Assembly (NCBI GenBank): GCA_033782935.1
Contig: JAWQEG010000288.1
Span: 62,001-126,000 of the forward strand
DNA from: Petrolisthes cinctipes
Lineage: Eukaryota; Arthropoda; Malacostraca; Decapoda; Porcellanidae
Direction: 5' to 3'
Length of the DNA: 64,000 nucleotides
A program made the position numbers and the translations under genes. The notes below the pieces were generated by a model, which did not search any database, was not told where the DNA came from, and was given only the letters and a program-made list of their open reading frames with translations. Positions 4,051-57,971 of this stretch are shown here, piece by piece; position 1 is the first letter of the stretch; the number at the start of each line of letters is the position of its first letter.

Positions 4051-7000
4051 GTAAGTGATGAACTTTGTTTAATTTAATTACGGGCAGATTATTTTGTTAT
4101 TGGTGATTTGGAAGGTCTATAATTTCTCCAAACTATCCCATGAAACAAGTCACCATAATATTACTTATATGGGATCTGTTTTGTGGCACAGTTTGAAGGA
4201 ATCAGTAGCCTTTCAATTTGCCAACAAAAGAAAGAATCTCCACTTAAGGAGAAAAGTACAGTGTTGGTGGGAAACAGGAGCCACTGATTCTTCCAAACTT
4301 TTCCAGGCAACTTATCAGTTCATGTTTTGTTTTTGTCTTTTTTAAGGTAAGTGGTGTCTCCATTGCCCACCATTCTTGTGATGGTACAGTCAGCATGGTT
4401 TCCCCTACATTACGGGGGGGGGGGGGAGTGAGTGTTGGGGACCCCACTCTGATAATAACCCCACTTATAGTTCAAATAGCCTGTCAGAGATCCTGCACTG
4501 AAGCTAGAGCCTCCCAACCCCTTTATAAACAAAGGGAAATGGGGAATTGATGGTGATGATGGGTTTTCCATCCATGGGGTCACATTGGTTTATTATTTAT
4601 ATTCCCTGCTTGTTATAAAAGGCGACTGAAATGGGTTTTCACTTCTCCAACTGCCCCTTTTTTTCATGTTATCTTTTGTGCTTACTGTCCCACCTCTCAA
4701 TCACCTTCCTCGGGCGCCATATGACCTTGCTGTTGCGGCACCTACTATCAATCAGTTGTTCAATCAATCATTTATATATACAGTTGGTGGGTTTTCCATT
4801 CATGGTGTCACATGGGTTTATTATATGACTAGTGGGTTTTATACAAGGCATTACTATATTTATTTATTATACAACTAGAACATTTCTATTAACAGGTGGT
4901 GGGTTTTTCGTTCCTGGGGTCGCATTGGTACAGTCATCGGTAACAACAAGCTGGAGGAGTTTGAGGACCTTAATGATGCCATGGCTTCCTTTAATGAGGT
5001 GTATGAGGAGAAGACTTGTAACACATTCACTGCTAAACAGTTCAACAAGAAACCTGGTGCCTGGTACATCATGGATATTGATTATGGACAGGTATGTGTG
5101 TGTGTGTGTGTGTAGACCACCAAACTTAATAAAATACTGCTGTGTGTATGTAAGGGGTGCCAAACAATGATTGCCCCCCACCTCCCCAGAGTAAACTAAA
5201 GCGGGTATCGCGGCGCATTTTTCCTGCGATACCATTTTCGACGACATGTTGCGGGAAACGGGAGATTTCGGACGACGAGGTGTCCACGGAAACTATCGAA
5301 AACTGTCGGGGATTTCCTGCGACAGGGAGAAAATCATTGAAAGTTTATAGTGAATAATATTGTATGGCATATTATGATTTAAGTAGTGTTGGGTATCATT
5401 ATTTGAGTATAGAAATTGTATTCCTAGATCTTATATATTATATACACCGAATTTAAATGTTAAATATGAGCATGGAACATTGATTTGATTTCGGGGTTTG
5501 TTTACATTTCTACTTTCGCCTGCCGCCTGGTCCAAACCTCTTTCCTCCTCCTCCTTCCAAAGCAATTGCACATGCTCCAAAAGCTAAAATTGCTCGGTTA
5601 AAGGCGACCATCCTTGGTGATTTCGCTTTTGTGACAGAATGTTTTGGTTGTCCCGCCGCCCGCGTAGTGTCGTCGGTCGTCATTGTCTTTATTGAGAATT
5701 TGCCGTGTGCTATTGTTTCCCGCGTCATGTTGTTGAAAATGGTGTCGCAGGACACGATGTCGCAGGAAAAGAGCGACCGTGTGATACGGCCTTTAGCATG
5801 ATAGGAAAAAATATAAATATCAAGAGGTAGCACAATTCATTGTGGGTCTATGTTGACAAGCTGAGTATTAAGTGTTAACTCCATTGGGGTTACAAACAGC
5901 TTGAAGATAAGCAGGGTAGGAAGACAACGTGACTCAAAAAGCTCCATATCCAACTCCATTCTTTGAAACACAGCATCAATGTGCTCCTCTATTTTGGTAC
6001 GATTAAATAGAGTTCAGACATCATCCTTTTTTCAACTTTGTCCTTCAAGATGGATCCTATATTTTCACAGACATTCAGATCGGAAGAATTACCGGGTCAC
6101 TCATTATCAAATAAAAGTTGATGTTGTCCTTTAGAAGGTTCTGAGTTCAAAGCTCTTTAATGTACGATACTTTGTCACGTAGAAAGGTAACCTGAGTGAC
6201 ATACAGAACATTTTGAGAGTTTTGAAGAAAGGGAATGACACACTCCATCAAGAATATAATATCCATCCCAACTTTGCCCCCCGAGGCTTTATTACCCACA
6301 TCATCCACCGTGCAGTGAAGAGAACAAAAACACCAACACATTCAGGACTTTTGATTAATTCACCATGATGCTCTTCATCTGGAATCTCATCCAGAATCAG
6401 TGACCAGATTCTGTCGTTCTGATAATTTGGTCTCCTTGTGATATAAACCAAAAATTCATCACTCACCGCCAAATGGAGGAAGTTGCCTTCATCCCACTCT
6501 CTCAAAACTCCACCAACCAAAAGCGATCTTCAATATTCAGTTGGGTTTTACGAAGCTTTGGAATCTCATGCCATACCTTCAGACCTTGTCTTTGACGAAT
6601 CAATCAAATAACTTCCCGACGTCTAGTTTTCCCGTGACGTTGTTAGATTTCTTGGCTAAGTTAAGTTACGTGCAGCATTACTTTCGGTGACAAGATCCCT
6701 CAGTGACAATGTCTTTTGACTCCAAATACAGAACTTTGGCCTACCACTCACAAACTTACGAGGGTAGTACAGTTTTGAAAAATCTGTAGTAACTGATTCA
6801 TCCAAACTATTCGAGGCAACAGGCCACCATTATTTTTCTTAATCTGGTCCTGTTTCCTGACATACTTTGGAGGAATCAAGGAAGTCTAGTATATCAAAAG
6901 TGTACTTTCCCCTTAACTTCACAATCGTCCAAACTTTTGTTCCAATTACGCTTGATAAAATCCTTCGATCCTCCAAGCCATAGAGCAAAACACAACACAG

Positions 7001-10000
7001 ATATAAAGGAGGAACCGGCATCAAGGACCTCACGAAATGTAACTGCTCGGATGCGGTCGATATATTTCTTATTTTCACTGTAGTTTAATGCAGCAACACA
7101 CATGTTGATACCAGCAAAGAAGAAGAATTGAATGTACTTTCAGATGATATCACCACCATATATCTAGCTAATACAGTATTCGCCCGGCACCTTGTACAAG
7201 GCTAACAAACTCATAAAACACTGCTCTGTGTGTGTACAAGACAACCAAACTTCATTAAACACTGCATGTGTGTGTGTACAATGTGGTGTTTGAATAAAAT
7301 ATGAACGAATAGATGAGATATGAGTTGTATATGTATCTATGTTTCGAATGTGGATAAAGGGGCTTCATCGTAGTTTATGTGGTGAAGTCTGTCCTTTGAA
7401 TTAGTCAGTTCCTGTTGAGCTGCACCAGAGTTAACACATTAATAAACTGCACCGTATACAGTGTGTTTCATAAGCCCGTCAGAACAGAACATGGCGCAGT
7501 GAGTAGCCACTTGAAGATGGAGAATCAAGTGGAACAACTGACGGCACTGCTGGTGCAGCAGGCTGAGATGGCCAGGCAAGCCCAGGAGGAATCTCGGCGC
7601 AGAGAGGGGCGCCTGAATGACGTCTTGGAGCAATTGATATCTCGTCAGGTGGGAAACCCCGGTCGTGAAGACAGTCAAGCCGGCGCAGTCGAGGCTACAC
7701 CACAACATGTCAAGTTTTCACCAAGTGCAGCACTCACCCCACACCTGTCATCCTCCGCTTCTTTACGTGAGTTCGACGCTTGGAGACACAAGTTTAGAGG
7801 TTACGTGGCATTGACGAAGGTGACTTCCCTTCCACTCGTGCAACAAAAAGCAATTCTCACGTCTATGCTAGATGATGAGTGGACTCGTACGCTCCGTTAT
7901 GTCGTCGACGTGGCTGACGGCGCCCAGTTGGAGGAGGTACTTGATGCCATGGAAGCACATCTCCGAGGACAACGCAACGTCATTGTGGATCGGAGGGAGT
8001 TTTACTCAAGAGTGCAACAACAAGGTGAAGCCTTCGATGATTTTTTATGTGCCATAAAGGAAATGGTAAATTTTTGTGACTTTTGTGATCATTGTATTGA
8101 TAATCGTTTGAGAGACCGCATTGTTGTCGGTATTCGTGACGAGGAAGCACTGAAACGTATGCTCCAAGAAAAACATTTACAACTACAAAGTGCCATTGAT
8201 ATATGTCGTGCTTCAGAGAATGCAAATATGAGTAGGGCAGTGATTAGAGACCACGCTAGTCAGTCATTATGTAAAGTGTCTCGCTATAAGCATGAGAAAA
8301 CGCCCCATCATAGTACGAAAGATAAAGTTTCTTTGTGCCATAGATGTGGGAGAAAGAGCCACAAAGAAAAACAAATGTGTAAAGCTTTAGACAAAGACTG
8401 TTTGAACTGTGGAAAGAAAGGCCACTTTGCGGCAGTATGCTGGAACAATCCTCGAACCCCAAGTGTCACTAAACAGTTTCAGGCACGTGCCCCGGTATCA
8501 AAAGTAAGAGCTCGTGATGTTCATCAAATATTGGCGGGTGTGTACACCAACAAAGTGTCAGCTCGCCCGGCGCCAAAAGTGTTGATAAATGCCACTCACC
8601 CACGAGGTCGAGATGCCGTTGTGTGGACACCCGACTCGGGTGCAGAGGCTACGGTGATGGGCCTTGACGTGGCAAAATCCCTTGGTATCCCTCAGACTCT
8701 TTTAGAAGCCCCTAGCTGTGGTGTACTCTTCGCTGCGGGTGACTATCCCCTCACATGTCTTGGATCGTTCACGTCGCAGCTGGAATTGGGTGACAGGAGT
8801 ACCAGTACGGTGGTTACCGTCATCAAGGAGGTAACGGGAGCACTATTGAGCTGGTATGATTCTGTTGCTTTGGGTATTCTGCCATCCGATTTTCCTGCAC
8901 AAATCAAGTCTATTAAGGAAAGTAAAGCAACGGAATCATTGCCTGCTTCGCCTCCCATAGTGTTACCACGTTGGCCACACAACCATGACCCCACCGAAGC
9001 CGAGCGAGAAGAACATGTCAAAACAATAATTAAGGCTTTCCCAAGAGTATTCGACACTTCACATACACTGAGAGAGATGGATGGGGGCCCCATGCGCATA
9101 GAACTGACAGATGATGCTGTCCCATTTGCAGTTACTGCTTCACGTACTATCCCTTACAGCTGGCGTGATGACATAAGAGCCCAGATTGATGAACTTCTAG
9201 CTAAGGATATTATCGCCAAGGTTGACTATCCTACAGTTTGGTGTCACCCGATTGTCCCGTTAGCCAAGAAAACATCAGGGGTAAGGCTTTGTGTGGATCT
9301 CACTCGCCTCAATCGTTACGTGAAGAGGCCAACATACCCTGTGCAATCTCCTCATGATGTGGTGGCAAGGATAGGGTCAGAAGCGTTCTGGTTCACTACT
9401 ATGGACGCCAAAATGGGCTATTTTCAAGTTAAAATAGCAGAGGAGGATCAAGACCTTACATGCTTCATAACACCCTGGGGCCGTTACAAATTTAAGCGTG
9501 CTCCCATGGGACTCGTCTCGTCGGGAGACGAGTATAATCGACGTGGTGATCAGGTATTAGGGGATATTCCTCGAACTATGAAGGTGGTTGACGACATACT
9601 TGCATACGATACACGCTACAAAGATCACCTTTCTCATGTAATCACCATCATACAACGTTGTGACAAGCATGGCATTACTTTAAATGCAGACAAATTCAGT
9701 TTTGCTAAGAACGATGTGGTATATTGTGGCTACAACATAACTCCTCAAGGTTATACTGCAGACTCCAGAAAGGTCAGTGCGATAGCTGATTTTCCCAGAC
9801 CACAGAACCTGACTGACTTACGGTCATTCATGGGATTGGCTAATCAATTGGGTAATTTTTCCCCAGCAATAGCCGATGCTGCACAGCCTTTAAGAGATCT
9901 GCTTAAGCCCAAGAATGTATGGCTATGGACGACACAACATGAGGAAGCCTTCAGGAAGGTCAAAGAATGTTTGGTATCTCCCCCTGTCCTTGCATTTTAC

Positions 10001-13000
10001 GACCCGACACTGCCAACCATGTTGCAGACGGACGCATCGAAAAGGAATGGCTTCGGTTTCGTCTTGCTACAGAGACACGGCGAGATATGGAAATTGGTAC
10101 AATGTGGTTCACGTTTTCTAGCGGATACGGAGTCAAGATACGCCGTCGTAGAACTGGAACTAGCAGCAGTGTGTTGGGCAGTAAAAAAGTGTAAGGTTTA
10201 TCTCGCAGGCCTTCCTCATTTTGATGTTATTGTTGATCATCGCCCTCTAGTCCCGATTTTAAACTCTAAACTACTTAGTGAAATAGAAAATCCTCGTCTA
10301 CAACGATTCAAAGAGAAACTGGCAAGCTATTCATACACAGCATGCTGGCAAAAGGGGTCTTCCCATTTTGCACCTGATGCCCTCTCACGTTCACCAGTGG
10401 AGGATTGTGCAGATGGTGAATCAGGCAGTGACAACGAGGTGGACACTCAAGATCCCCTCCACACTGTCGTGTCAGCTGCCCTTAACGCTGTCTGTGAGGA
10501 TGGCACCCGTCTGGCACCCCTCAAGGACCAAACGCTGGAAAAGATTCGAGCTGCGTCTGAGAAAGATCTGGAATATCAGGCCTTGAAGGAGAGGATTGTC
10601 AGCGGCTTCCCTGAACACCGTCATGATCTGGAACCTGAGCTACGACCATTCTGGGGTGTTCGCAGTTTACTCTCGGTGGACGAAGAATTTATTGTGTACG
10701 GTCCAAGATTAATTATTCCCCACAGTCTCCGAAGGGAAACTCTGTCTCGCTTACATGAGTCTCACAAAGGTATCGATCGGACTAAACGGCGAGCCCGCCA
10801 GACTGTATACTGGCCAGGAATAGACAGGGATATAGAAAATATTGTCTCGAGTTGTCAACAGTGTCGCCCTTTACTCCCCAAGCAACAAAACGAACCATTG
10901 TGGCAGGACGATGACCCACCAATAAGAGTTTTCCAGTCAACTTCTGCAGATTATTTTCATGTTGCTGGCCGCACCTACTTGGTATACGTGGACCGTATGT
11001 CAGGCTGGCCGTATGTGTCATCCTGCCCACGACATGCTTCAGCAGCTCATCTTATCACTGCATTAAGGTCTATATTTACAGATACAGGTGTGCCCGTGCT
11101 TATGAGGACTGATGGTGGACCGCAGTTCACTTCATCCAAGTTACGTCGCTTCCTGACTCGATGGGGGGTGGAACATAGGGTAACTTCCCCATACAATCCT
11201 CAGTCTAACGGTCACGCAGAGGCTGCAGTCAAAACCGTCAAGAAGTTAATCGTGACGTCAACTAAAAGAGGACAGTTAGACGAGGATGAGTTTGCCCGTG
11301 GATTGTTGGAACTCAGGAACGCCCCTCGTGCTGATGGACGGTCACCATCACAAGTACTGTTCGGTCATCCCATGAGGTCAGCTGTGCCCGCACATCATCG
11401 TTCGTTCGCTCCCGAATGGCAACGAGCGGCAGACGACTGTGACATTACTGCTGAGCATATAAAAGTAAAGGCGAAGGAACGATATGACACTACGGCTAGA
11501 CAGCTTCCCAGGTTACACCTCGGCTCGTATGTAGATGTACAGGACCACGCAAGCGGACGATGGGATCGTGTTGGTGTTATCGTGGGTATTGGTTCCCGAC
11601 GTGACTACTTAATCAAGATGGGCAGTGGACGCATTATGTGGAGGAATAGGAAGTTTCTCCGGCCCCATCATCCTATGTTATCGGAGACCATTCCTCGACA
11701 TAAAGCCACACCAGAGGAACGAGAACATGGTAGTCCGGTTGATCCAGCACCGCCTCACCCAACAACAACGGACTTGGGAGAAAAGCGAGCAGCCAACCTT
11801 CCCCGCCGAAGTCATCGCCAGCGACGTGCACCTCAACGCCTGGAGATGCAGTGGAGGACCAAGACTTACGATAATAAATAAGACATCATGTAACTTTGTA
11901 ATACTCTAATGTCTTGGGGGAGGTGTGGTGTTTGAATAAAATATGAACGAATAGATGAGATATGAGTTGTATATGTATCTATGTTTCGAATGTGGATAAA
12001 GGGGCTTCATCGTAGTTTATGTGGTGAAGTCTGTCCTTTGAATTAGTCAGTTCCTGTTGAGCTGCACCAGAGTTAACACATTAATAAACTGCACCGTATA
12101 CAGTGTGTTTCATAAGCCCGTCAGAACAGAACATACAAGACCACCAAACTTCATAATACACCACCGTGTGTGTGTTGTGTGTCCTTCTTTCTGTCTCTGG
12201 CTGTGTGGTGCCAGTTTGAGAGTTGTGATATGTAAGGGGATAGTACAGTGTTGGCAAATCTGGAGCAACTGATTCCTCCAAACTATTCCAAGCAACAGGC
12301 CACTACTGTTTTTGTTAATCTGATCCTGTTTCCTGGCATATTTTAGAGGAATCAAGGTGCCCAAAAGTATACCATCCCTTTGACCTAACCCCAACCCAAC
12401 CCTGACCTGATCTGACCTAACCTAATCTAACTTAACCCGACCGGACCTGACCTGACCTAATCTAATCTAACTTTAACCTACCCTTCCCTTAACTTAACCT
12501 AACTTTAACCTACCCTAGCCTTCCCTTCTCTTAACCTAACCTAACCTAGTGTTCCCTTCCTTTCCCTGTCCTGAGCTTAACCTAACTTTAACCTATCCTA
12601 ACCTCACCTCACCTCACCTCACCTAAGAGTATAACATAAGACACTGGACATATGCATCATCAAGCCCGTTCCCTTGGCCCAGGTCAAGACTTCCAAACTG
12701 GTACCCAGTCACAGAGGGAGGGAAGTGAGGGTAATTCCCAAATACTGCAGCTGTTATGGTACCAGTGAGGGTGTTTTACGACGTTCGGTGGCCTTATAGT
12801 TAGTGCCTGAAACTCAATTTGGAAGAGTAAATATTCTCAGCCCCTCACCTGAGAGGATTCGATCTCCCGACCTATAGGCTAAGAGTCTAGAACACTAACC
12901 ACTCAGCCAACTCCCCTCTGACTGTAACATAGCATAACATAACTTTCCCTTACAGGATGATGACACTGCCTTGGCCCCTAAAGTGGCTGGGTCCAAGAGT

Positions 13001-16000: not shown

Positions 16001-19000
16001 TTAAAGTCTAGGTAAATACTATCCACCCATCCTTCTCTTTCTTATATTTTTTCTGATATTCCAGTATAGTAACTCAGTAAGTTTGTAACACATGATCTTT
16101 CCTTCCTAAACCCAAATTGTCTCTCTGTTATCATATCATTTTTCTCCAAGTGCTCAACTCAATTTCTTCTTATAATCTTTTCCATAATTTTACACACTAT
16201 ACTTGTTAGTGATACAGGTCTATAGTTAAATGGGTCTTGTTTATTTCCTTTCAGGAGGGTGAAAAGTTGTTCACTATAAAGGGGTTAGACTTATCACGAG
16301 TGTATCAACCGAGCATGGGGGTGATAGTGGGGTGGTAAGTTTAGTTATCACTAAAACTCATTAAATTATTATTCGTGCACACATATTCCTTTGTTTGTAT
16401 GCATTAATTTTAGTAATTTTCTCTTAAAATCACTACTACTTTTCTTGGAAATCGTCTAGTTAAGGACCGTCTACGTGGGGGGAGCACTGTACATTTATTT
16501 AACATACCGTGATGCAGTATCGACGGTTTTGTTATCGCCGGCCATCTTAAGAACGTAACCCCTGTCGATAACGAGGGAGTACTGTAATGCCTTGTTTTGC
16601 ACTGTTGGTGTTATGGGCTGGTATTACACTGTTTGTAATGAATGTCTGTACTGTATAACCTCATCATACACTGGTGGGTTATAAGTGTGTAATGTACAAA
16701 GAGGTTTTACTGTACAGTATACAGGTTCATTACAAACAGTACATTACACACCCATAACAATAGTACAATACAAGGCATTACTGTATATGGGTGTGTAATG
16801 TACAAAGAGGGTTTGCTGTACACACATTCATTACAAAGAGTTAGTACAATACACACCCATAACAACAACAACAATACAAAACAAGGCATTACAGTACAGT
16901 ACTCAAGAAAGTTTGCTGTACACACATTCATTACAAATTGTTAGTACAATACACATCCATAACAACAACAATACAAAACAAGGCATTACTGTACTCACCA
17001 CCATTTAATTTTCTTTTACAGAACAAAATTGGAATGCTGGATAACCTGAGTGAGATTGAAGTGGCTTACAACCTGCTTAAATCCCAGGACGACGAGGACA
17101 AGGGTGCCGACCCCATCGATAAACATTACCGGAAACTCAAGACAAATATAACGGTGATGGAGAAGGACTGTGATGAGTTTAAGATGATAAAAGATTACGT
17201 CAAAAACACACACGCATCCACTCACTCTCATTACACACTGGATATATCACAGGTAAGGAAAAATATATTTAGTTTATTGGTTGTATTTAAGTGGATAGTA
17301 CAGTGTTGGTAAATTTGGGGCACATGATTCCTCTAAACTATTCCAAGCAACAGGCCCTGGGAATGGCTTCGATTACCCGGGCAATTCCTCGCCCCTCACA
17401 CAACCGGGGCTGTTCGGCCAGACAGCTTGAGAAACTTCAACGACAGGCCCCCATTATTTTAGTTAATCTGGTCCTGTTCTTTGGCATACTTTGGAGGAAA
17501 CAAAGCACTCCTATGTACCAAAAGTATATTAATTACCCTCTTAATATTAAGTTTATATATATCACTTAATATTAAGTGTATATTCAGGTGTAGTAAGTAT
17601 AATAATTATTCCCTTAATATTAACTGTATATTATTACTTCCCTTAATATTAACTGTATATTATTACCTCCCTTTAATATTAACTGTATATTACTACCTCT
17701 CTTAATATTAAATGTATTTTCAGGTGTACAAAGTGGAGCGTCAAGGTGAGAAGAAGAGATACAAGCCGTTCAAACAACTACACAACAGGAAGCTTCTGTG
17801 GCACGGATCCAGACTCACAAACTTTGCCGGCATCCTCTCACAGGTTAGTAAGGTTAATTAATTACACAGCCACAATCAAATATCCACAGACACTTTCCTT
17901 CCATCATAGTAAATATCTTGGTAATAAAGAACAACATGTGTATGATTTTGCAGCACCTCATAATAATAACTGAGGGGGTTGAGTTGACGTAAAGTGTTTT
18001 ATGTTTATAATTTGATACAATGCTGATTTATTTGCACGATGGAAGGAAAGTGTCGGTGGTTATTTGATTGTGGCTGTACATTACACACTACCTTCTGATA
18101 TTTGTAGAAGTATGAATAAAATCATACCACTCATAGCTAGTGTTTGTTGGTAAGTCTGGAGTAACTGATTCCTCTAAACTATTCCAGGCAACATCAGGCC
18201 ACTATTATTTTTGTTAATTTGGTCCTGTTTCCTGGCATACTTTGGAGGAATCAAGGCACTCCAATGAACCAAAAGTATATTAACCCCTTAAGGTTAGGGT
18301 AAAGTTAGAGTAGGTTAGGTTAGGTAAAGGTTAAAGTTAGGTTAGGTTAGAGTAGGTTAATGATAGTAGGCTAACCTGCTGTCAGAAATTTGGTTAATTT
18401 AGGTTAAGTTAAGGTTAGCTTAGGTTAGGTTAGGTTAAGTTAAGGTAAGGTAAGGTATTAGTTAGGTTAGGTTCAGGGGAGTTACTTGCTGTTAAAATTT
18501 AAGAGGTTCTGATTCCTCCAAACTATAAGCCAGGAAACAAAATCCCACCTTATGAGTTATGAGACTACACAGATGTGTTTTATGACAGAGCTTGGAGGGC
18601 TACATGTGCTCCAATTTCCCCACAGCAGGTTACTCCCCTGAAGGTTAGGTTAGATTATTTTAGTCAAGCTTCAATGACTTAATATTTTGTTGTTCCACAC
18701 TTTGCCAGGGTCTTCGTATCGCACCTCCCGAGGCACCAGTGACTGGCTACATGTTTGGTAAAGGTGTTTACTTTGCTGACATGGTGTCCAAATCAGCCAA
18801 CTACTGTGCCACATCAAGTACCAACCCTACAGGACTTTTACTATTGTGTGAAGTGGCTCTGGGTGATATGTAAGTACACTTGTTGGTTTGTTTGTTCCTT
18901 TGTACAAATTGAATCCATATACAATGTATGAATGAATACTTGTATCCACCACTTACTTCATTATACACTCATTCACTCGTTGAAAACCAAATTTTATCCC

Positions 19001-19948: not shown

Positions 19949-20130
19949 GAGGGGTACTGGTAAGTACTGGTGGACTTTTACTGAAGGGGGATAGTATACT
20001 TTTGATATATTGGAGTGCCTTGATTCCTCCTAAGTATACCAGGAAACAGAGCTTGATTAACAAAAATAATTTCTTTTCACTGACAGTATCTACTGTAATT
20101 CATCCTGGTGTGAAACAGCTAAGAATAAAC
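19949..20130 (+). other. PARP1: PARP1 3' UTR candidate with AATAAA
   Basis: AATAAA at 20124-20129 lies about 175 bases after the stop and could be the polyadenylation signal. A half PAL-1 copy lies within it at 19986-20075. Confidence 0.5.
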
Positions 20131-21020
20131 TGAAACAAAATAAGCATATGCAAGTTAATCTTCATCATGCTCTGGCTTCCCTATGAGGAATGGAAAAGCC
20201 TTAGTTGCCACAGTACCTCATTTCCTCTGACCATTTTTTATGTTGATACTTCACCTATACATACAACAAGGCTGGTGACAAAGGGTACTGCATAAACTCA
20301 CAGGAAAGAGTAGATGAAACAGGGGACTGGGGAGAGTTTGGGGGAGGTGTGTGATATTGATTTGTGGGTTTTGGGAATGGTGGGAGTACAGCCGGCAGCA
20401 TAAATTCGCATCCATCTCGTGTACTTAATGCTAATATGACCAGATAGTTGCATTCTGAACCAGTTTAAATTCCAACAACATAGGTAGTTTACCATATGAG
20501 AACTATATATGTCATCCCTGCATAAAAACTGCATTACAACATCACTATAGCTAATACATACGAAGGTGGAAATGAAGCGAACTTATGCTGCCGACTGTAT
20601 ATGGAAAGGTATGAGTCATGATTAGGGCTAGTATTTTGTAGTTGTCCGGATGGATGGCTCATAGACAGTGAGATGGGTAACTCCCAGCCTTCTTCCTTCT
20701 TGTCAATGGGAGTCCCCTGTTTATCCATGCCTTTAAAATCACTCTCACCAAAGAATGGGGCATAACGGCCATTGGAATCCCTTGCCACCTCTTGACCTCT
20801 AAGTCCTCTTCTAGTCTGTATATATTTTTCTCTCATCTCTCTCTATTTTCATCTTTCTTGCTTTCCAAGTAATCTATATCTTTACCTTTCCCTGATATCT
20901 AATTCTAACTCTCCCTGAGTTCTATTGCCCTCATTTTTTTTTTCTATATTCTAAGGACTCTCTTTTCCATTGTTTTAACACTCACTTTCTAAAGCTCTCT
21001 CTCTTCTGCCTCTTTCCTCA
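20131..21020. other. Spacer, nothing recognised
   Basis: Mostly unique sequence with no conserved gene or repeat that I recognise. A 100-codon minus-strand frame at 20534-20836 has no recognisable motif. Confidence 0.4.
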
Positions 21021-21312: not shown

Positions 21313-21399
21313 ATTATTGATTGTTGAACGGATGATTGTCTTGTACCTCGTCTGATTCCAATATAACAAATGCTGCTAATTTGATTAATTAAGTTAAAA

Positions 21400-22146: not shown

Positions 22147-22239
22147 ATAGTCTCTCAGGTTGCTACCAAATTCCTCATGATATACACTTCTTACTCTTAT
22201 TTTTTTAAAGAAAAATCCAACAAGTATGTCCATCATAGT

Positions 22240-23550: not shown

Positions 23551-23555
23551 ATTGG

Positions 23556-23722
23556 TGAAGGAACAACAGCAGGATATAACTTAATTAAGGAACAGCAGTC
23601 AGCAGCAGGATATAACTTAATTAAGGAACAGCAGTCAGCAGCAAGATAAACTTAATTAAGGAACAGCAGTCAGCAGCAGGATATAACTTAATTAAGGAAC
23701 AGCAGTCAGCAGCAAGATATAA
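23556..23722 (+). repeat. 36-bp tandem repeat upstream of NAT10 start
   Basis: About four and a half units of GGAACAGCAGTCAGCAGCAGG plus ATATAACTTAATTAA lie 75-240 bases before the NAT10 ATG, probably in the 5' UTR or promoter. One unit has a 1-bp shorter ATAA variant. Confidence 0.9.
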
Positions 23723-23796
23723 TGATACAATACATACCCGTAACACAAGAAATATATAAGAATAATTGGTGAAGGAACAACAACAGCAGGACAAAA

Positions 23797-23913
23797 ATGG
23801 TGAAACTGGACAAGATAGCTGCCGATACAAGGCTCAAGTCACTGATAGACAATAATGGAAGGCTCAAACATCGATCTTTCCTGGCCGTTCTGGGAGATGA
23901 CGTTAAACAACAG
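23797..23913 (+). CDS. NAT10: NAT10 exon 1 with start codon
   Basis: ATG at 23797 in context CAAAAATGG. MVKLDKIAADTRLKSLIDNN then LKHRSFLAVLGDDVKQQ fits the family start (D-x-R-I-x-x-LI-x-N-G, RS-x-F-x-V-x-GD). Donor GTCAGT. Confidence 0.93.
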
Positions 23914-32200: not shown

Positions 32201-35200
32201 CATCCATCACCTTCCTCAGGTGCCATATGACCTCGCTGTTGCGGCACATATCCCACCCACTATGTCAAAAACAATATACATTATATATATGGCAAAAACT
32301 TTGAAGTGCTCTTATTTATTAACCTGATACTGAAGGGGGAAATACAGTGTTGGTAAATCTGGAGCTTCTGATTCCTTCAAAGTACAGTATTCCAAACAAC
32401 AAGTCACAATTATATTATTTTGTTAATCTGGTTTTGTGTCCTGGTAATACGTTTTGGAGGTCTTAAGGCACTCTAAATGTACCAAAAGTATAATTATTAC
32501 CCCTTAACATCTCCATAATACAATATAATTTATAAATGCCAAACCACATTTGTTAACTACAATATGATTATTTAATATTTATATAAACTTGACTACATTG
32601 GTTAACTACAATAAAATTAAATATTTAGTATTTATATAAACTTAACTTACATTTATTAACTACAATATAATTCAATATTTAGTATTTATATATATAAACT
32701 TAACTTACATTTATTAACTACAATATAATTATTTTCTTCACAGGCAAAGTCGAAAGCAACTGAAGAAACTTGAGAAAAACCTCAAGTCTGGAAAATGTGA
32801 TATTTCCAAAGAAAATGCCTTTGATGTTTTTATGTTGTCAACTGGTGTGAAGTATTGCTGCTTTAATGATTCTCAGTCCATTCTGGGAAATACATATGGA
32901 ATGTGTGTAATACAGGTAAGGTTATTATATTGACTAAGATAACATATAAACTTAATATTAAAATTATAACCTGTTTAGAAATGTGTACAGTCGTTGTCAG
33001 AATGTGTGTAATACAGGTAAGGTTATTATATTGACTAAGATAACATGTAAACTTAAAGGGGAAATACATTATTGGTAAATCTGGAGCAACTGATTCCTCC
33101 ACAAACTATTCCAAGCAACAGAGCACCATTATTTTTTGTTCATCTGGTCCTGTTTCCTGGCATAATTATTTGAAGGAATCAAAGCACTCTCCAATGTAAC
33201 AAAAGTGAATTTCCCCCCTTAAGGGACCCTGTGATGTAGTCAGAAAATTGGAGGTTTGCGAGTCCTTCAAACATTGCCAAAAAACACACACACCTAAATG
33301 GATGGAGCGTGTTTCGTGGCATGGTCAGGAGGAATCAGAAGCCTCCAATTTTCATACATGATCACAGGGTCCTTAATAGTAAATTTATAACCGCTTTAGG
33401 AATGTGCAGTTGTCAGAATAGGCTATATATTATAAGATGTATAGTTGTGGACATATAAAACTGACACACACTGAGCATAGGGTAGGATGAGACATTGTGT
33501 GTGTGTGTAGCATGGGGTAGGATGAGACATTGTGTGTGTGTGTGTGTGTGTGTGTGTATAGCATAGGGTAGGATGAGACATTGTGCGTGTGTGTATGTAG
33601 CATAGGGTAAGATGAGACATTGTGTGTGTGTGTGTAGCATAGGGTAGGATGAGACATTGTGTGTGTGTGTGTGTAGCATAGGGTAGGATGAGACATTGTG
33701 TGTGTGTGTATAGCATAGGGTAGGATGAGACATTGTGTGTGTGTGTAGCATAGGGTAGGATGAGACATTGTGTGTGTGTGTGTAGCATAGGGTAGGATGA
33801 GACATTGTGTGTGTGTGTGTAGCATAGGGTAGGATGAGACATTGTGTGTGTGTAGCATAGGGTAGGATGAGACATTGTGTGTGTGTGTGTGTAGCATAGG
33901 GTAGGATGAGACATTGTGTGTGTGTATAGCATAGGGTAGGATGAGACATTGTGTGTGTGTATAGCATAGGGTAAGATGAGACATTGTGTGTGTGTGTGTA
34001 GCATAGGGTAGGATGAGACATTGTGTGTGTGTGTGTAGCATAGGGTAGGATGAGACATTGTGTGTGTGTAGCATAGGGTAGGATGAGACATTGTGTGTGG
34101 GTGTGTGTAGCATAGGGTAGGATGAGACATTGTGTGTGTGTGTGTAGCATAGGGTAGGATGAGACATTGTGTGTGTGATGTTTGGTCACCTAAATTAATT
34201 AAAGGAGGTAGTATGTTCAGTTGTGGCACATAGTCCTTGACCAGCGTGTAAGGGGAAGTTTGTTCAAGGACTATGTGCTGCAGCTGTACACACAGATACC
34301 ATAGTCCACCTGAGTCGAAGCCCGAGATCTGAAGCAGGCAGTTTCTGGATGACAGCCCACCCAAACCATCACGAGTCTACACACATCTTGAACCAGTGGA
34401 GGTTATGGGTGGGCTGTCATCCAGAAACTGCCTGCTTCGACTCGGGTGGGCTAGAGACTATGCCACCATGGTATCCGAGTGTACAATGTTGGTGGTAAAT
34501 CTGGAGCTACTGTTGATTCTTCCACACTATTCCAAGCAACATACAGGTCACCATTACTTTTGTTCATCTGGTCCTGTTTCCTGGCATAGTTTGGAGGAAT
34601 CACAGACCTTCCATTTCACCAACAACAACACAATAATCTTCCCTTAAATGGATAATGGTAATTTAAATAATCTTATATCGAGTGCCTACTGTGTATAAAA
34701 AATAATCCATTGCAGTTTCTGAATCCCTGCTTGTCATAATTTCGCTTTTACAACTGTCCCTTTTTTATTTTATTTATTTATTTTTTAATCTGTTACCTTT
34801 TGTGCTTACTGTCCCACCTCTCGATCACCTTTTCCTCGGGCGTCATATGACCTTGTTGTTGCGGTGCCTAATATCAACCAACCAATCAAACCATTTCCAT
34901 TGCAGGACTTTGAAGGTGTGACAGCCAACACACTGTGCCGTATAACAGAGACTGTGAGTGGTGGTGGTGCAGTCATCTTACTCTTACCAGGAATGAATTC
35001 ATTAAGATGTCTCTCTTCACTCAAAATGGATATACACTCAAGGCTCAAGACTCATTCACATCCCAATGTCATACCACTATTTAATGAAAGGTTAGTGGTC
35101 TCTCTTCTCTCATTAAGACTCATTCACATCCCAGCATCACACTACTATTTAATGAAAGGTTAGCAATGTCACACCACTATATAATGAAAGGGTAGTCTCT

Positions 35201-38200
35201 CTTATTTAATTTAAGGCTTGTCTCTCTTGTAATGGATAAAGGTCAAAACCTATTCACTAATTGATGTAAGGTTAATAATGTAACATCACTACTGTATATA
35301 ATGAAAAGTCACAACACCATAATATTATAATGAAAGTTTAATAATGTCACATCACTACCGTATATAATGAAAGGTAAGCACAACACAGCTTATATAAAAA
35401 GCTTACAATTGACCAAGTTAATATTACACATTTTTGTTATCTTGTTTACACACTGTACTTATAAACTGGATTCAGTTGTATTGGTTCCATGAAGACACAT
35501 AGGCTGCTACTATTAAACTTCTTCTTCAAGGGTAAAGGCTTTTCGTCGCTCGATTTGTAATGTAAAATAAGTGTAATGGATGTATGTACTGTAACACTTA
35601 ATGTACACTATATTTATCACCCATAATACCAGTGTACTGTACAATGAGGGTTTTCTGTACACAGTTTTATTACACACCCAAATTCAAAAAGAAAGTTTAA
35701 TTTAATACCACCCTTAGGATTTTCAGCAAGAACTTTGATGGTGTTGGCGATAGTGTGGTAGCAGTAAGGTGACTCCATAGACAAACGACAGAGCCATCAT
35801 ACCAGTACCACGCTATTGTCAACACCACAGATGTTCTTGCATGCGACCCAAGGACACATAAAATTATTAAGTCATTGGGCTGTATACAGGAACATCTTGG
35901 TGCTTAAGATGCATGGTATTGGTACGATAACTCCATTGACAAACAACAGAGCCATTGTACTGGTAACACACCATTGTCAACACCATGGATGTACATGCAT
36001 ATGGCCCCATTGATACTGTACCATAACACAGGTGGTCCACTAACAATATTAATATAATGTTTATATTGACAGGTTTGTTGTGTCATTAAGTTGGTGTAAG
36101 TCATTCTTGGTATTGGACTCTAAGCTTCAGTTAGTACCAGAACTACCAACTCTAAATGATACTCAAGTGGAAAATATAAACTGCAAACAGCTGACTGCAT
36201 TACAAACATCACAGACACAGTTGGAAGACCTACGCAACTCATTACACGATGCAGAGAAACCTTTACCACATCTGATGTCTTGTTGTTGGACGCTTGATCA
36301 GGTGACCTATTTTACTTACCTTCAAAGTACAGCCACAATCATTTAACCACCGACACCTTCCTTCCATCATGCAAATAAATCAGTATCATATCAGACTACA
36401 ATCATACAACACCTTACCTCAAATCAACCCCCATAATTATTATTATGAGGTGCTGCAAAATCATACACATGTTCTTTATTACCAAGATATTTACTAAGAT
36501 GGGAGGAAAGTGTTGGTGGATATTTGATTGTGGCTATACATGTACAGTTGGCCACAGGAATTCTTACACAGGCTATATGGAAAGAGAGGTCATTATTGTG
36601 GAAGTACTGCAATGAATGGTCTACCAAGTGACTCGGTAATTACAAACAACAAACTAATGATGATGTTGTATTCCAGTTACATAGTCTTACATTTCTTGTG
36701 GCCAATAGTACTGTACAGGGTTGGACATAAGTTTTAATACACATATGGATAATTCAAACAGATTGCTATCTAATGTCTTCACGTTTTCATATGATGTTAC
36801 TGTTTGAAATAGTGAGTTAGTAGCTGCTTGTAATAAATTAGAAATTGGTACATATTCCTGTGTGTGTTATTTTTTTGAATAGTGAGTGAGTAGCTGCTTG
36901 TAGTAACTTGGAAGATGGTACTTATTCCTGTGTGTGTGTGTGTTATTATTTTGATTAGTGAGTCAGTAGCTGCTTGTAGTAACTTGGAAGATGGTACTTA
37001 TTCCTGTGTGTGTGTGTGTTATTATTTTGATTAGTGAGTCAGTAGCTGCTTGTAGTAACTAGGAAGATGGTACTTATGCCTGTGTGTGTGTGTTATTGTT
37101 TTGATTAGTGAGTCAGTAGCTGCTTGTAGTAAATTAGTAGATGGTACTTAACCTATTTCTTGGAAAGTTACTCGGCTAATGAACAGAGGGAAGCGGTCAA
37201 TCACTTACATGAGTAACCCAATGTGGATGATTATTATTGTCCACGACTGTACATGGTATTATACTTACCGGTATTAAATTATATAATGTTGTTCCCTTGG
37301 TCTTCATATCTGTCCAGTATTATCTCGGCAAATACCCAAGTATCCCTGCTTGTCGTAATAGGCCACTAAAAGGGGCTTTCACTTCTCCAATTGTCTCTTC
37401 TTTTTTTTTCATCTGTTACCATTTGTGCTTACTGTCCCTCCTCTCAATCACCTTCCTCAGGCACTATATGACCTTGCTGTTGCAGTGCCTAATATCAATC
37501 AATCAATCAATTAATCAATAATCAATCTCGTCAAATATATAATACACAATACTGAGAATTTCTAGCTGAAAATTGACACACCCAATGAAATGACGAAGGG
37601 AACACATGAGATATTTTTAATAACATCTCTGAATTTTAACTTGAGTTTTTTTTAGTTTGCTGGTTGCCTGTTTTCAGTGATGAGGGTTAAGGGGATAGTA
37701 TAGCATTGGTAAGTCTTGAGCAACTCTAAACTATTCCAAGCAACAGGTCACCATTATTTCCGTTCATTTGGTCGTCATTCCTGGCATACTTTTGAGGATT
37801 GAAGGCAGGCACTCCAATGTACCAAAAGTGTATTACCCTCTTAAGGGGAAAAGCTTTTCTTTGGTAAATTGGAAATATACTAATTCCTCCATACTGTGCC
37901 AGGAAACAGATTCCCTATTTAGCAAGTTAAGGGGCTATGAATACCTTCCCAGTATCACTGCTTGTCATAAAAGGCCACTAAAAGGGGCTTTCACTTCTCC
38001 AACTGTCCCTTTTTTTTTCATCTGTTACCTTTTGTGCTTACTGTCCCACCTCTCAATCACCTTCTTCCTCGCGCCCCATATGACCTCGCTGTTGCGGCAC
38101 GTAATGTCAATCAACCCATCAATCCCTATTTAGCAGCATATAAGTCGGCTGTTTCCTGGTATACAATAGTTAGGAGGAATCAGTAATCCTCCAATTTACC

Positions 38201-38726
38201 CAAAAGAGATTCTTCCCTTATGATGAGAAAATAATAAGCAAGAGTGATGCATGTTGTGATGAAGGTGATGGCAGAGAGAAGGAAGAGAATTGGTTAGTGG
38301 TAATGGCCACAACATTGAGTGTACATTGGTTGGATTAGTTTAAGGAGATAGCATACTTTTGGTACATTAGAGTGTCATGATTCCTCCAAAGTATGCCAGG
38401 AAACAGGACCACATTAACAAAATAATGGAGACTGGCCTGTTGGTGGGAATAGGTTGGAGGAATGATTATCTCCAAAAATGCCAAAACTATACCATCCCCA
38501 TAAAATGTCTAATAATAAGTAGAAAAGATTAACAGACCAATGCCTTGACAAATTTTTATTATTTCCCATCAGGCCAAGTAGAAAAAATAACACACCAATG
38601 CCTTGACAATTATTATTATTATTACTATTATTATTATTATTATTATTATTTTGCATCAGGCCAAGTAGAAAGAATAACACACCGATGCCTTGACAATTAT
38701 TATTATTATTATTATTGTTATTATTA

Positions 38727-38788
<62 letters not shown>

Positions 38789-44700: not shown

Positions 44701-44846
44701 AGTCAGGCAGAGTTATTAGTTATTGATGAAGCTGCTGCCATTCCTCTACCACACGTCAAGGCTCTTATTGGTGGTTCATATAATGTCATCATGTCTTCCA
44801 CTATAACTGGGTAAGTTGGCTGGAATATTTGAGGAGTCTACTGGCA

Positions 44847-44877
<31 letters not shown>

Positions 44878-47800: not shown

Positions 47801-50800
47801 TTCGTTATAAAACATGTCAGAATCACATTTTTCAATATGAATTATAATATCACTGTCGTTTTTACGTACATAAATGGTAATTACAGAAAAACGGAGCTCT
47901 GAAAATACCTTCTTCCATCCTCACTGCTTGTTTAACACTAGATGGCTTATGGCTGGCTGGACTTGGGCTAGTCCCTAGGGTCCCACAATCAGTGTTGCCA
48001 GTCGATACAACCATGTCATGGGGGGCACATATTTAAAAACTGCGCTGTCGACTTATGTTGTCACCCGCGGTCCTCCACACTTGTTTGTGGTGTCGACTTA
48101 TATCGTCACTCGCGGTTAAGGGGTTAATATTCCTTTCACCACCACCCACCCAGCAGGTCTTGGTCATAGTCTACATAAGTTAAGGACCCTGTGATTGTGT
48201 ATGAGACCTGGTGGGTTTCTGATTCCTCCTGACTATGCCACGAAACAAGGTCCTTCAATATAGGTGGTGTTTTGTGGCAATATTTGAAGGAATCACTAAC
48301 CTCCAATTATCTAACTACATCACAGGGTCCCTTAGCATTACAACATGAGTGTTAATATTATTCCTTCCATCACTCAGCAGGTTGTGGTCATACCCTACAT
48401 GAGTTAACATTACAATAGTGTTAATATTATTCCTTACACATGAGTTAACTTTAGATGAGAGTGTCCGGTATTATTCATCTTACTATAAGAGTGTTAATAT
48501 TATTTCATCAACCACCCAACAGGTCGTGGTCGTACCCTACATGAGTTAACGTTAAGTGAGAGTGTTCGGTATAGTCCTGGTGACCCTGTGGAGTCGTGGT
48601 TATATCGTTTGCTGTGTTTGGATACACCCACGGTACCATCACATACATCATCTTGTCCACCACCACAAAACTGTTCTTTGTACTATGTAAACAGGTATGT
48701 ATGAATGTTCTGTATATATATATATTTATGTTCTCTATGTCTATGTCTTTATGCAAGTGGGACTGTGTGTATGTAAACAGGTATGTATGTATGTTCTGTA
48801 TGTATGTATTTATGTTCTCTATGTCTTTGTCTTTATGCATGTGGGACTGTGTGTATGTAAACAAGTATGTAATGTATATATGTGTTTATGTTCCCTATGT
48901 CTTTGTCTTTATGCAAGTGGGACTGTGTGTATGTAAACAAGTATATAATGTATGTATGTATTTATGTTATGTATGTATGTTTGTATGTTCTTTATATATG
49001 TACTGTATGTATGTATAGATGTGAATTGTACCATGTGAAATTTAATGTGTTTACGGGAGTGTGTTACTAAGTGGTCACAGTTTATTCTTATCGTCATTCA
49101 TTTCTTGTGTTTACAGGAGTGTGTTACTAAGTGGTCACAATGAGAGTGAACATTTACTGAGTGAGATAATGAGTCTCCTTGCTGCCTCACATTACCGCAA
49201 CTCACCCGATGACCTTCAAATACTGAGTGATGCCCCAGCCCATAGTATCTTTGTCTTGTTGCCACCAGTGTACCAGGGAATGGAATCACTACCACCAGTT
49301 CTTGCTGTTGTGCAGGTTCGTACTTAAATCGTTATCTGTTTGTATTTCCACGTGTGTGTGTGTGTGTATGTATATGTTTGTGTGTATACGTGTCTGAGTG
49401 TGTGTCTGTTTGTGTGTATTCGTGTGTGTGTGTGTGCATGTGTCTTTCTGTATGAATAGGGGTATTACACTTGGTACATTAGAGTGCCTTCCTCCATAGT
49501 GTGCCAGGAAATAGAGATAGAAGAACAATAATAATGGTGACCTATTGTCTGGAATAGTTGGGAGGAATCAATTACCCCAGAAAAACTAACAGTGTACCAC
49601 CCCCTTAAATCTATATCAGTTTGTATTTCCATGTATTTCTGTGTACAGTATGTGTGTGCGCATGTAGTATTATGCTCAATATAAAATGTGAAAGGTTCAC
49701 CATGTAATGAAAGTATATTATAATGAATTATCTTTGGTCGGAACTGTCAAAAAATTACTTATAATGACAACTGTCACTTATAATGAAAAATGTCAGTACA
49801 CCACTACCACTGCTCATCATGTTCATCAACTGTTGGACATTGTTGTTATTGACAAATCTGTGTCATCGTCACAAAATAATTACCATGTTGCAATAACTAA
49901 CTTAGAGGGACGAGCTTATCTATACTTGTGAGGCCTAATGGTGGTGTGGAATGTTATAGCAACACGGTGACATGCTCAAATTCCACACTCAAGATATTAT
50001 TTTTACGTGCAGTAATTATCATTAACATTATAATGTAGAACATGAAATAATAACTCCACGATGTGTTACTATAAATTATCTTTGACCTTTATTGAACATT
50101 CATATAAAATAGCACCTGACCGAGACAACTGCATTACTGCTTACAATCTTCCCCCCCTACCCTAGCTCCATAAAATACGGAGCCACACCCAAGCCCCTAC
50201 CACCCATCAATCAACCTCCCACTCATTCATACTGGTATGTGTTTCGGATACTAAAGCCGATGACACTGGAGGTACACACCTTGTGGGTTACACAGATTGA
50301 CAATGCTGGAGTGATGAAACGGCAGTGGAGAAGACTGTATATTAAAGTGTCTTGATTCCTCCAAAGTGTGGCAGGAAACAGGACCAGATGAACAAAGGTA
50401 ATGGTGGTCTGTTGCTTGGAATAATTTGAAGGAATCGGTTGCTCCAGATATACCACCACCACCAACAACTATCCCCCCCTCCCCCTTAAGGAAGGTAAGA
50501 TTCTTTTGTTGGTGAATTAGAAGGTATCCGATTTCTCCAAAACTATATCACAAAACAACAAATCCCCTATTAGTACCAGTGAGGGTGTCTGTTTTCTGGT
50601 ATAAGGTAATTAGGAGGAATCAGTAGCTTTCCAATTTACCAACAAGAGAATCTCACCTTAAATGAAAAATTACTGTGATATTATTGTTGGTTATTGTTAT
50701 TGTAGGTGTGTGTGGAAGGTAGTATACCAAGTAAAGTGTGTAAAGGTGTACTAATAATGTGATGGTATTATTTGTTGTTCTTGTAGGTGTGTGTGGAAGG

Positions 50801-53800: not shown

Positions 53801-56800
53801 AGCGCCGCGTAAGACGAGTGAACCGCTGCTTCTAAAACTGAGTGAGAGGGTACCAGAGAATGTTGACTACCTGAGTGTGTCGTATGGTCTCACACTCCCA
53901 CTGCTCAGGTTCTGGTCACGTGCTGGCTACCTACCCTTGTATATTAGGTCAGTAACTATATCAGGTCACTCACTAACTCATCTTAACCTGTCCTTGTATA
54001 TCAGGTCACTCACTAACTAACTCATCTTAACCTATCCTTGTATATCAGGTCAGTAACTATATCAGGTCACTCACTAACTTATCTTAACCTATCCTTGTAT
54101 ATCAGGTCACTCACTAACTCATCTTAACCTGTCCTTGTATATCAGGTTAGTAACTATATCAGGTCACTCACTAACTCATCTTAACCTGTCCTTGTATATC
54201 AGATCACTCACTAACTAACTTATCTTAACCTATCCTTGTATATCAGGTCAGTAACTATATCAGGTCACTCACTAACTCATCTTAACCTGCCTTTGTATAT
54301 CAGGTCACTCACTAACTTATCTTAACCTATCCTTGTATATCAGGTTAGTAACTATATCAGGTCACTCACTAACTTATCTTAACCTATCCTTGTATATCAG
54401 GTCACTCACTAACTCATCTTAACCTGTCCTTGTATATCAGGTCACTATCTATCTATCTATAGCTCTGACGCCTCGTTCCCTCCGGGAACTCCCCCCAAGG
54501 GGGTGGCCACGGCAGAAGTGTCTCCAGTTCTCCCTGTTCCAACACTCCCTCCTTACTTGTTCAAGCCCTCCTCTGCCCCTCACGTTTCTCTCCTTTACAT
54601 ACTCTTCCACTCTGTTCTGCCATTTAACCGGCGGTCTGCCTCTCACACCAGGTCCCACAACTTCACTTCCATACACCTTCTTTACAAATTCCTCGCCTTG
54701 CATTCTCTCTACATGTCCAAACCATCTCAGTGTATTACGCTTCACTCTCTCAACCACTCCACACTTAATACCAATTGCCTTCTCACTCATACCACATCTC
54801 TCATACACACTCTCATTACTTTCTCCATCCCACCTAGACACCCCACATGCTCCTCTCAAGTAACTCATTTCCACAGCACCTATTCTAGATTGATGCGCCC
54901 TACTCCATATCCATGTCTCTGATGCATATGTCAGTGTCAGCAGGATTATACTATTTCTCAGTCCCCTTTTCACCTCCATACTCACACTTCTACCCTTCAT
55001 AATCCTTCCCAATGATCCTATGACCTGTCTACCCTTCACTGCTCTCTCCATAATTTCTCCTTCCATACTCCCATGTTTACACAGAACTGTACCCAGGTAC
55101 TTAAACTCCTTCACTTCCTCCATCCTCTCACCCCTCAAAGTTATCTCACATTTAGTCCCAGTTGGTACTCCCACTCTGTAAGGTGTAGCAAAGTCAATCA
55201 CTTCAGTTTCTGCTCTCTCAAACACCATCACTTTACTTTTACCAACATTCACCTTCAGTTTCCTTCGTTTACACACAGACTGAAATTCGTTTACACACAG
55301 ACTGAAATTCGTCTACCACTCTCTGTAACTCCCTTTCACTCTCAGCCATCAACACAGTGTCATCCGCAAATAAACTTGCCACCAAGGACCAATTTGCTTC
55401 ATTCAGCCTCAACTTCACCCCCAGACCATTCACTTTGGCTTTCATCTCTCTCATACAACCATCCATATATATATTGAACAACCATGGTGACATAACACAT
55501 CCCTGTCTCAGCCCTACACTAATATTAAAACTCTCACTTAGATCACCCTCTACCCGCACACATGCTGTTGCCTCTGCATAAAAAGCCTCAATGCCTTTCA
55601 GCAAAGACCCCCCAACACCATAAATTCTCAACACCTCTGACATAGCTTTCCTATCAACCCTATCGTATGCCTTCTCCAAGTCCATGAAGGCAGCATACAA
55701 CTTCCTACCCTTCCCAATATATTTCTCCACTATTGATTTTAATGCAAATATTTGGTCCACACATCCTCTACCCTTTCTGAACCCTCCCTGCTCCTCACTA
55801 ACTTTATTCCCCATTACTTCAATCAGTCTCTCAGTAAGAACCTTCCCATACACCTTCCCCGGTACACTAAGAAGGCTTATTCCCCTATAGCTACCACACT
55901 CCTCCTTACTCCCCTTCCCCTTATACAAAGGTACAATTATGGCTCTCCTCCAATCCTCTGGCACCTCTCCCTGCCTCCAAGCCAAAGTGCATATAAGCAA
56001 CATCCACTCCACCACTACCTCCCCCCCACACTTTGACATTTCAGCAGTTATCCCATTCACCCCCGGTGCCTTTCCCACCTTCAACTTTCCTATTGCTTTC
56101 CTAACCTCTTCCCTTCCCAGTTCTCCCTGTACATCCTGTCGTCTACCACCTGCCTCCATCCCCATGCATGTCACCACCGCCTCCCCTCCTGTCCCCCCAT
56201 TCATCAGACCATCAAAATGCCTCTTCCACACTTCTTTCACTTCCTCACTTCTACTCACAGTAACTCCATCCTCTCTCTTCATTCTCAAGCTACCAGACTT
56301 TCCTTCTCCTCTTTCTCTTTTAACCTCCTTCCAGAATAATTCCTTGTTCTCTTTAAACTTTTCACTCAGTTTCCTGCCAAACTCCTCATCCACTCTCCTT
56401 TTACTCTCACTCACCATCCTTTTCACTTGTCTCTTACATACATTATATTCTCTCTTCCACCTCTCTCTCACTTCTTCCGACACATTCCTCTGTAATGTTC
56501 TCCTATATGCCTTCCTTTTCTCCTTTACGGCATCTTTCACTTCTTCTGACCACCAAGCACTCCCATTCTTGCCCCTCTTCTGTGTCTTATATCCCACTAC
56601 CTCTGCTGCTGTCTTCAATACTATTGTCTTAAACATTTCATACATATCATTCACTCCCACTCCCTCCCCCATACTCAGCCTTGCATCCTCCAACACCTCA
56701 CCCACCCTCCTCACTCACTAACTTATCTTAACCTATCCTTGTATATCAGGTCAGTAACTATGTCAGGTCACTCACTAACTCATCTTAACCTGTCCTTGTA

Positions 56801-57971
56801 TATCAGGTCACTCACTGACTAACTTATCTTAACATGCCTTTGTATATCAGGTCAGTAACTAACTTATCTTAACCTGCCCTTGTATATCAGGTCAGTAACT
56901 AACTAATCTTAATATTTCTGTAGACCCCCAATGTACAGCCACAATCAAATATCCACCAACACTTTCCTTCCATCATAGTAAATATCTTTGTAATAAAGAA
57001 TAACACATGTATGATTTTGCAGCACCTCATATTGATAATTGAGGGGGTTGAGTTGACATAAGGTGTTGTATGATTTATATTTTGATGTGATACTGATTTA
57101 TTTGCACGATGAAAGGAAAGTCTCGGTGGTTATTTGATTGTGGCTGTACAGGGCTGTATTCAAGAACATTCATAGTGTTTATGATGGCATGGTACCCCTA
57201 GTATATCAGGTCACTCAGTCACTTGTATAATTATCTTATATAATAAACTCATTTTAAACTGGGAATGTGTGTGTAATGAATGTATGTATGTATGTACTGT
57301 AAACACTTATTGTTCACTATATTACACACTCATAATACCAGTGTACTGTACAATGAGGGTTTTCTGTACAGTTGAATTACATTATACACCCATAATAATG
57401 TGTAAATGTTGTGTGTAATGTAATGAAACAGTACAGAAAACCCTCATTGTACAGTACACTGGTATTATGAGTGTGTAATGTAGTGTACAATAAGTGTTTA
57501 CAGTACATATATACATACATACATTACACACACACTATTTCACATACATTACCTCAGTGTAAAGGCACCCTGTGATATAGTCAGAAAATTGAAGGTAAAT
57601 GAGTCCTTCAAATATTGCCTTGAAACATCACCTATATGGAAGGTGCATGTTTTGTGGTATAATCAGGAGGAATCAGAAGCCTCTAATTCCCATATACGAT
57701 CACAGAATACTTAAGAAAATACTATATATACTTTTTGGTACATTATAGAGTGCCTTGATTACAAAAAAAGAATGCCAGGAAACAGGACTAGATTAACACA
57801 AATAACAATGTCCTGTGGGCCCAGTGGGGCTGACTTTATTCTCTGTGAATATTAGTTATCCCCCACAGGGCTAGAATAAAGATTGTTGTAGGATCTGGTC
57901 ACTTTCTAGTGGATTTGACGAGATCTGCCCACATGGATTAAAAATCCACGTGAGGTGTACTGCAACCGGAG

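Follow-up and report, generated by a model that had tools for sequence, protein, structure and literature searches.

Intron-side copies of splice junctions in the PARP1 and NAT10 genes of the crab Petrolisthes cinctipes

The introns of PARP1 and NAT10 in P. cinctipes contain partial, directly oriented copies of their own exon-intron junctions, hereafter called echoes, and these echoes seem to track how rich in repeats the introns are locally. We consider it highly likely that they are minisatellites of the kind named 'mirages', i.e. the product of ordinary tandem-repeat growth that happened to run across splice sites. The pattern as such is known from amphioxus; a narrow literature search listed no earlier case from a crustacean.

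Results

Gene models of PARP1 and NAT10

The window is a stretch of 64,000 nucleotides (positions 62001-126000 of contig JAWQEG010000288.1, hereafter C288) that holds the part of PARP1 encoding the C-terminal region and, downstream of it, most of NAT10. Both genes were rebuilt exon by exon (Table 1), and the rebuilt exons could be aligned to solved chains of PARP1 and of RNA cytidine acetyltransferase, respectively. Among the matches listed, the nearest proteins were those of Petrolisthes manimaculis, Pmani_011270 for PARP1 and Pmani_011271, which is 96% identical, for NAT10. As these two gene numbers are adjacent, the same order of PARP1 and NAT10 is suggested for P. manimaculis. An automatic splice alignment to the P. 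manimaculis proteins gave splice sites identical to those of our models in 18 of the 20 window introns. The two missed introns are accounted for: exon a was not recovered, and the aligner took an echo of NAT10 exon 4 for the exon end. The echoes thus mislead tools, and one script likewise anchored NAT10 exon 10 on its own echo. From the rebuilt models we obtained a set of 43 junctions in the window. Just 5' of the likely NAT10 exon 1, a 36-bp tandem array is found at 23567-23756.

Copies spanning splice junctions in both genes

The sequence-only reading of this DNA had listed nearby copies at about ten of some 40 visible junctions, in both genes. Leaving this list unused, we scanned for gapless self-matches with a score of at least 12 at a distance of at most 2000, with low complexity (microsatellites) masked. 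Copies that span the junction with at least six bases on each side were found at 9 of the 43 window junctions, namely the acceptors of PARP1 exons b and f and of NAT10 exons 9, 10 and 11, and the donors of NAT10 exons 3, 4, 9 and 13. With flanks of four bases, the acceptor of NAT10 exon 6 was added, the weakest echo of all (14 bases, five of them exonic), and the resulting 10 of 43 are exactly the junctions named beforehand. The best copy per junction includes 5-44 exon bases and shows an identity of 80-100% over 14-288 bases. In dinucleotide-shuffled introns (60 repeats; score of at least 14, distance of at most 600), a mean of only 0.07 of the 43 junctions carried such a copy, with a maximum of 1, which rules out a chance resemblance to the splice consensus.

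Inclusion of the PARP1 and NAT10 junctions beyond the window yielded echoes at 12 of 64 junctions with six-base flanks. Both boundary types are affected, with four donors and six acceptors in the window and three more donors, one of them weak, outside it. As claimed before, the copies comprise splice site plus exon bases and lie on the intron side; an exon-side copy was found at none of the 64 junctions. The earlier remark that many of them keep AG or GT is also borne out, as the main copy does so at 11 of 13 junctions and has lost the dinucleotide only at the NAT10 exon 10 acceptor and the P3 donor. With respect to orientation, good copies of 40-bp junction segments were direct at 12 of 64 junctions; this set differs from the twelve defined by six-base flanks in that the P2 acceptor enters and the P3 donor drops out. 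The search for inverted copies, which might betray template switching, gave 0 of 64. Replication slippage or template switching near splice sites had been proposed as the origin: the look of direct tandem duplication agrees with part of this proposal, whereas no inverted copies were found and an attraction by splice sites (see below) is not supported.

Table 1 Gene models and junction echoes in the window. Percentages give identity to the junction; empty cells, not given.
Feature	Position	Strand	Description	Basis
PARP1 exons a-h	3947-19948		in-frame joins, stop included	exon-by-exon rebuilding
Second copy of PARP1 exon b start	4555..4598	+	without AG at the matching place	by eye
PARP1 exon b acceptor echo	4769..4817	+	34 exon bases, 80%, 112 bp upstream, AG kept	scan
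PARP1 exon b (WGR domain)	4896..5091	+	acceptor echoed	gene model
PARP1 exon f acceptor echo	17562..17598	+	11 exon bases, 86%; adjoins 29-bp array at 17597-17717	scan
Likely NAT10 exon 1	about 23797-23913			
NAT10 exons 2-15	29890-59502		joins without stop codon	exon-by-exon rebuilding
NAT10 exon 3 donor echo	33000..33056	+	57 bp, 98%, 17 exon bases, 101 bp downstream	scan
NAT10 exon 4 donor, five partial echoes	35115..35378	+	offsets 68, 100, 180, 246 and 283	alignment
NAT10 exon 6 acceptor, weak echo	38651..38664	+	5 exon bases, within ATT-rich array	scan
NAT10 exon 9 acceptor echo	48338..48412	+	75 bp, 84%, 32 exon bases	scan
84-bp tandem array from last bases of NAT10 exon 9	48684..48976	+	three echoes of the exon 9 donor	
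NAT10 exon 10 acceptor echo	49040..49079	+	23 exon bases, 93%, AG changed to GG	scan
NAT10 exon 11 acceptor echo	50679..50749	+	44 exon bases, 80%, 456 bp upstream	scan
NAT10 exon 13	53803..53947	+	donor carries more echoes than any other junction	gene model
Proximal array echoing NAT10 exon 13 donor	53929..54452	+	524 bp	
Distal array	56742..56912	+	unit as in the proximal exon 13 array	

The echoes differ in their layout. The donor site in the NAT10 exon 3 echo is identical to the authentic one, the copies of the exon 4 donor stand at nested spacings, and the exon 9 acceptor has a further copy 366 bp upstream of the junction. In several pairs the shared sequence is shorter than the spacing (40 of 60 bp at exon 10, 57 of 101 bp at exon 3), so that a plain perfect tandem duplication fails to account for every base between the copies. 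At six of the ten echoed junctions (exons b, 3, 4, 9 acceptor, 11 and 13), the exon side encodes residues that are alike in the solved proteins as judged by eye, which points to the exon copy as probably ancestral and the intronic copy as probably derived in these six. In PARP1, positions 4700-4784, located between the two acceptor copies of exon b, belong to a dispersed repeat for which the scored candidates include 39 other matches.

The same echoes are present on a second contig

All 22 exons are also present on a second contig, C671, at 99.6-100% identity and together with the same echoes, and the aligned blocks of C671 are mostly 97-99.9% identical to C288. Judging from this similarity, C671 is probably the other haplotype, the alternative being a duplicated locus; that VCP and EEF2 were found on one contig each was counted against the haplotype reading. 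We compared nine echo sets between the two contigs over 300 bp. Five show no difference and three differ by one or two bases. The ninth, in the ATT-rich region at exon 6, shows 0 mismatches over 724 columns, with gaps of less than 8 bases only. Tandem arrays are prone to assembly error, and the echoes might accordingly reflect sequence falsely repeated at junctions; however, the recurrence of exons and echoes on two contigs with so few differences disfavours such an artefact, which we regard as extremely improbable. Copy number differs between the contigs at the exon 13 donor array only, while the other nine window echo sets are unchanged where compared.

Two further differences between the contigs concern other repeats. 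An 80-bp array at 46815-47088, before NAT10 exon 8, has three core units on C288 and four on C671. Moreover, the intron between PARP1 exons b and c, which contains an LTR retrotransposon at 7193-12300 (long open reading frame at 7400-11878), measures 7864 bp on C288 versus 3038 bp on C671, and the LTR retrotransposon is therefore probably a heterozygous and fairly recent insertion.

Junctions compared with matched intronic anchors

The frequency of echoes at junctions was compared with that at intronic anchors located 30-1500 bp from the same junctions. Pooled over six genes, 12 of 116 junctions carried echoes, against 9.2 expected (95% null range 4-15, P = 0.18). The discovery window gave 9 of 43 versus 6.1 expected, and all junctions outside it 3 of 73 versus 3.1. 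These three echoes all fall to the 21 further PARP1 and NAT10 junctions beyond the window (2.1 expected). None was found at the counted junctions of VCP (0/24, 0.03 expected), EEF2 (0/12, 0.02 expected), SERCA-a (0/8, 0.85 expected at a repeat background near 9%, too few junctions to weigh either way) or the paralogue SERCA-b (0/8, 0.15 expected). Junctions with poorly aligned splice points were left out of the pooled test (4 of 28 in VCP, 2 of 14 in EEF2, 2 of 10 in SERCA-a and 4 of 12 in SERCA-b), and none of these showed an echo. Among the PARP1 and NAT10 junctions beyond the window, we omitted as uncertain the P3 acceptor, the donor at 57038 and the pairs at A 54024/56918 and 130312/131183; the P2 donor was counted although the P2 intron is poorly aligned. 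A stretch on C3910 presumed to be the EFTUD2 gene was excluded, its pieces being merely 25-43% identical to the query; two of its junctions passed the filter, with 0 echoes.

We repeated the test with several thresholds for score and distance and two ranges of anchors. None of five pooled settings showed a significant enrichment at junctions (P = 0.18-0.52), and for the 64 PARP1 and NAT10 junctions the lowest P was 0.086, at the most favourable setting. According to hand-calculated Poisson limits for this small sample, a ratio of up to about 2.3 is compatible with the data. A special density of copies at junctions is thus not clearly supported, and a modest enrichment is possible. An equal density at intronic anchors had been named in advance as the result that would speak against the idea, and within the available power this is what we obtained.

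It could be argued that splice junctions are duplication hot spots, e.g. as a result of replication or repair events close to them, since the raw rates lie slightly above expectation both in the pooled set and in the window, and the lowest P for the PARP1 and NAT10 junctions was 0.086. However, most of the excess is supplied by the discovery window itself, the pooled settings agree in their lack of significance, and the VCP, EEF2 and two SERCA genes contribute 0 echoes at 52 counted junctions. We therefore hold such hot spots to be unlikely.

The alternative is a background of duplication. Copies of this kind cover about 9-21% of the intronic positions of the gene bodies, depending on the setting and excluding two transposon-rich stretches (7100-12300 and 39200-44300, limits set by eye). 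They were found at 2.7% of exon-interior positions versus 15.5% of intron positions. The introns of VCP and EEF2 are nearly without repeats (background near 0.3-0.7%), and no echo was seen at any of their 28 and 14 junctions before rows were dropped. The earlier suggestion of a habit of the whole genome does not hold in this form, as the pattern is not uniform. Taken together, the pooled counts, the lack of echoes in VCP and EEF2 and the depletion in exons indicate that background duplication in repeat-rich introns crosses junctions.

Splice-site strength and the exon 13 donor arrays

The proximal array at NAT10 exon 13 has nine extra GT copies on C288 and four on C671; the distal array has four donor copies on each contig, giving totals of 13 and 8 decoy donors in intron 13. 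Splice sites were scored with rough, hand-set weights rather than a trained model. On this scale, 4 of the 10 proximal exon 13 copies scored exceed the authentic donor (9.0 or 8.5 versus 7.0). The scored set comprises 25 window echoes and leaves out the +246 copy at exon 4 as well as all four distal copies at exon 13. A stop codon is present in the extension of 22 of the 25, and only the exon 13 copy at +57 is in frame and open with its splice dinucleotide kept; its use would extend the exon by 19 residues. Use of most echoes would therefore be harmful, from which we infer that most echo sites are ignored by splicing. The predicted proteins of P. manimaculis fit the exon-proximal sites.

These data also bear on the idea that the arrays are functional, in which case their copies would serve as alternative or decoy sites to adjust the isoforms of NAT10 or PARP1, and array length would depend on the allele. 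The retention of GT or AG in most main copies, the exon 13 copies that outscore the real donor, the open extension at +57 and the copy-number difference between C288 and C671 would all suit this idea, but the stops in most of the scored extensions and the match of the exon-proximal sites to the P. manimaculis proteins argue against it, and we consider it very unlikely. Irrespective of function, the exon 13 array, with decoy numbers that depend on the contig and some decoys outscoring the real donor, represents a natural test of how a splice site is chosen among near-identical copies.

Discussion

How might the echoes have arisen? In the mirage-type scenario that we favour, short direct tandem duplications would build up in the introns of PARP1 and NAT10, and some of them would span an exon-intron junction, thereby placing duplicates of the splice site and of adjoining exon bases in the intron. 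The mutational step may be replication slippage or unequal exchange. The protein-coding original would remain exon-proximal and is presumably the one that is spliced, so that splicing would stay correct and the copies would be nearly neutral. Later rounds of duplication could then expand the copies into arrays that differ between alleles. Their restriction to the intron side would follow from the change to the protein that an exon-side copy entails, and exon-side copies are probably removed by selection. The depletion of copies in exon interiors fits selection against duplication within exons; a duplication across the junction would leave the exon intact provided that the exon-proximal site is used. 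This suggests that the pattern needs no preference for junctions, as a high rate of intronic duplication and selection against exon-side copies would suffice.

Very similar structures are on record for amphioxus. The passages of the reports that deal with mirages describe tandem duplications spanning exon-intron boundaries in Adh3, in the globins BflGb6 and BflGb9 and in troponin C, with similar repeats in PGBD5; both donors and acceptors are affected, and the units range from 10 to about 160 bp (PMC3087553, PMC3902484). According to the same passages, the BflGb6 units are 81-100% identical and number six versus three on two haplotypes, and many but not all of the mirage copies keep AG or GT (PMC3087553, PMC3902484). 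Undisturbed regular splicing is a further trait of mirages. Somatic instability is reported there for the Adh3 mirage (PMC3087553), and a part in intron gain has been proposed for mirages (PMC3087553, PMC3902484). The crab copies resemble mirages, as so described, in that they span boundaries, occur at donors as well as acceptors and mostly keep AG or GT; and if C671 is the other haplotype, their copy number differs between haplotypes as in BflGb6, although at the exon 13 donor array only. In contrast to the amphioxus cases as described in these passages, ours comes from a decapod crustacean, involves 12 of 64 junctions in two adjacent genes with a matched background test, and includes some larger spacings (best copy up to 456 bp away). 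A narrow literature search, decapod minisatellites included, returned no report of the mirage type from a crustacean. Our observations thus add an arthropod case to the amphioxus pattern.

Two other systems invite comparison. In the tandem-duplication model of intron gain, a duplication over an intron-exon boundary copies the splice signals, as outlined for the potato RdRp case in the relevant parts of the sources (PMC4974935, PMC3443670). The crab duplications likewise copy splice signals across a boundary. Unlike the case outlined there, no new intron is seen in the crab: all copies are located within introns already in place, and the exons fit the predicted proteins of the sister species. 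Ordinary intronic minisatellites share similar unit sizes, a similar local rate and the same genome regions with the echoes, which differ from them in that they include a splice site and some bases of the exon.

We put forward only tentatively, and with more doubt than belief, the wider proposal that in this crab lineage duplications run across junctions about as often as through introns in general, so that authentic sites may stand beside copies of equal or greater strength, as with the 13 and 8 decoy donors of NAT10 intron 13. The spliceosome would then have to rely on position or exon definition rather than strength, and the arrays would be a standing, allele-variable source of sites for new isoforms or introns.

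Other repeats in the window

The window ends in a perfect AC dinucleotide run of 1610 bases (62391-64000). Degenerate CCTAA/TTAGG arrays, which we take to resemble the arthropod telomere repeat, are located inside PARP1 introns at 12383-12548 and 18291-18500. Open frames at 1154-1951 presumably resemble a transposase of the Tigger/pogo type.
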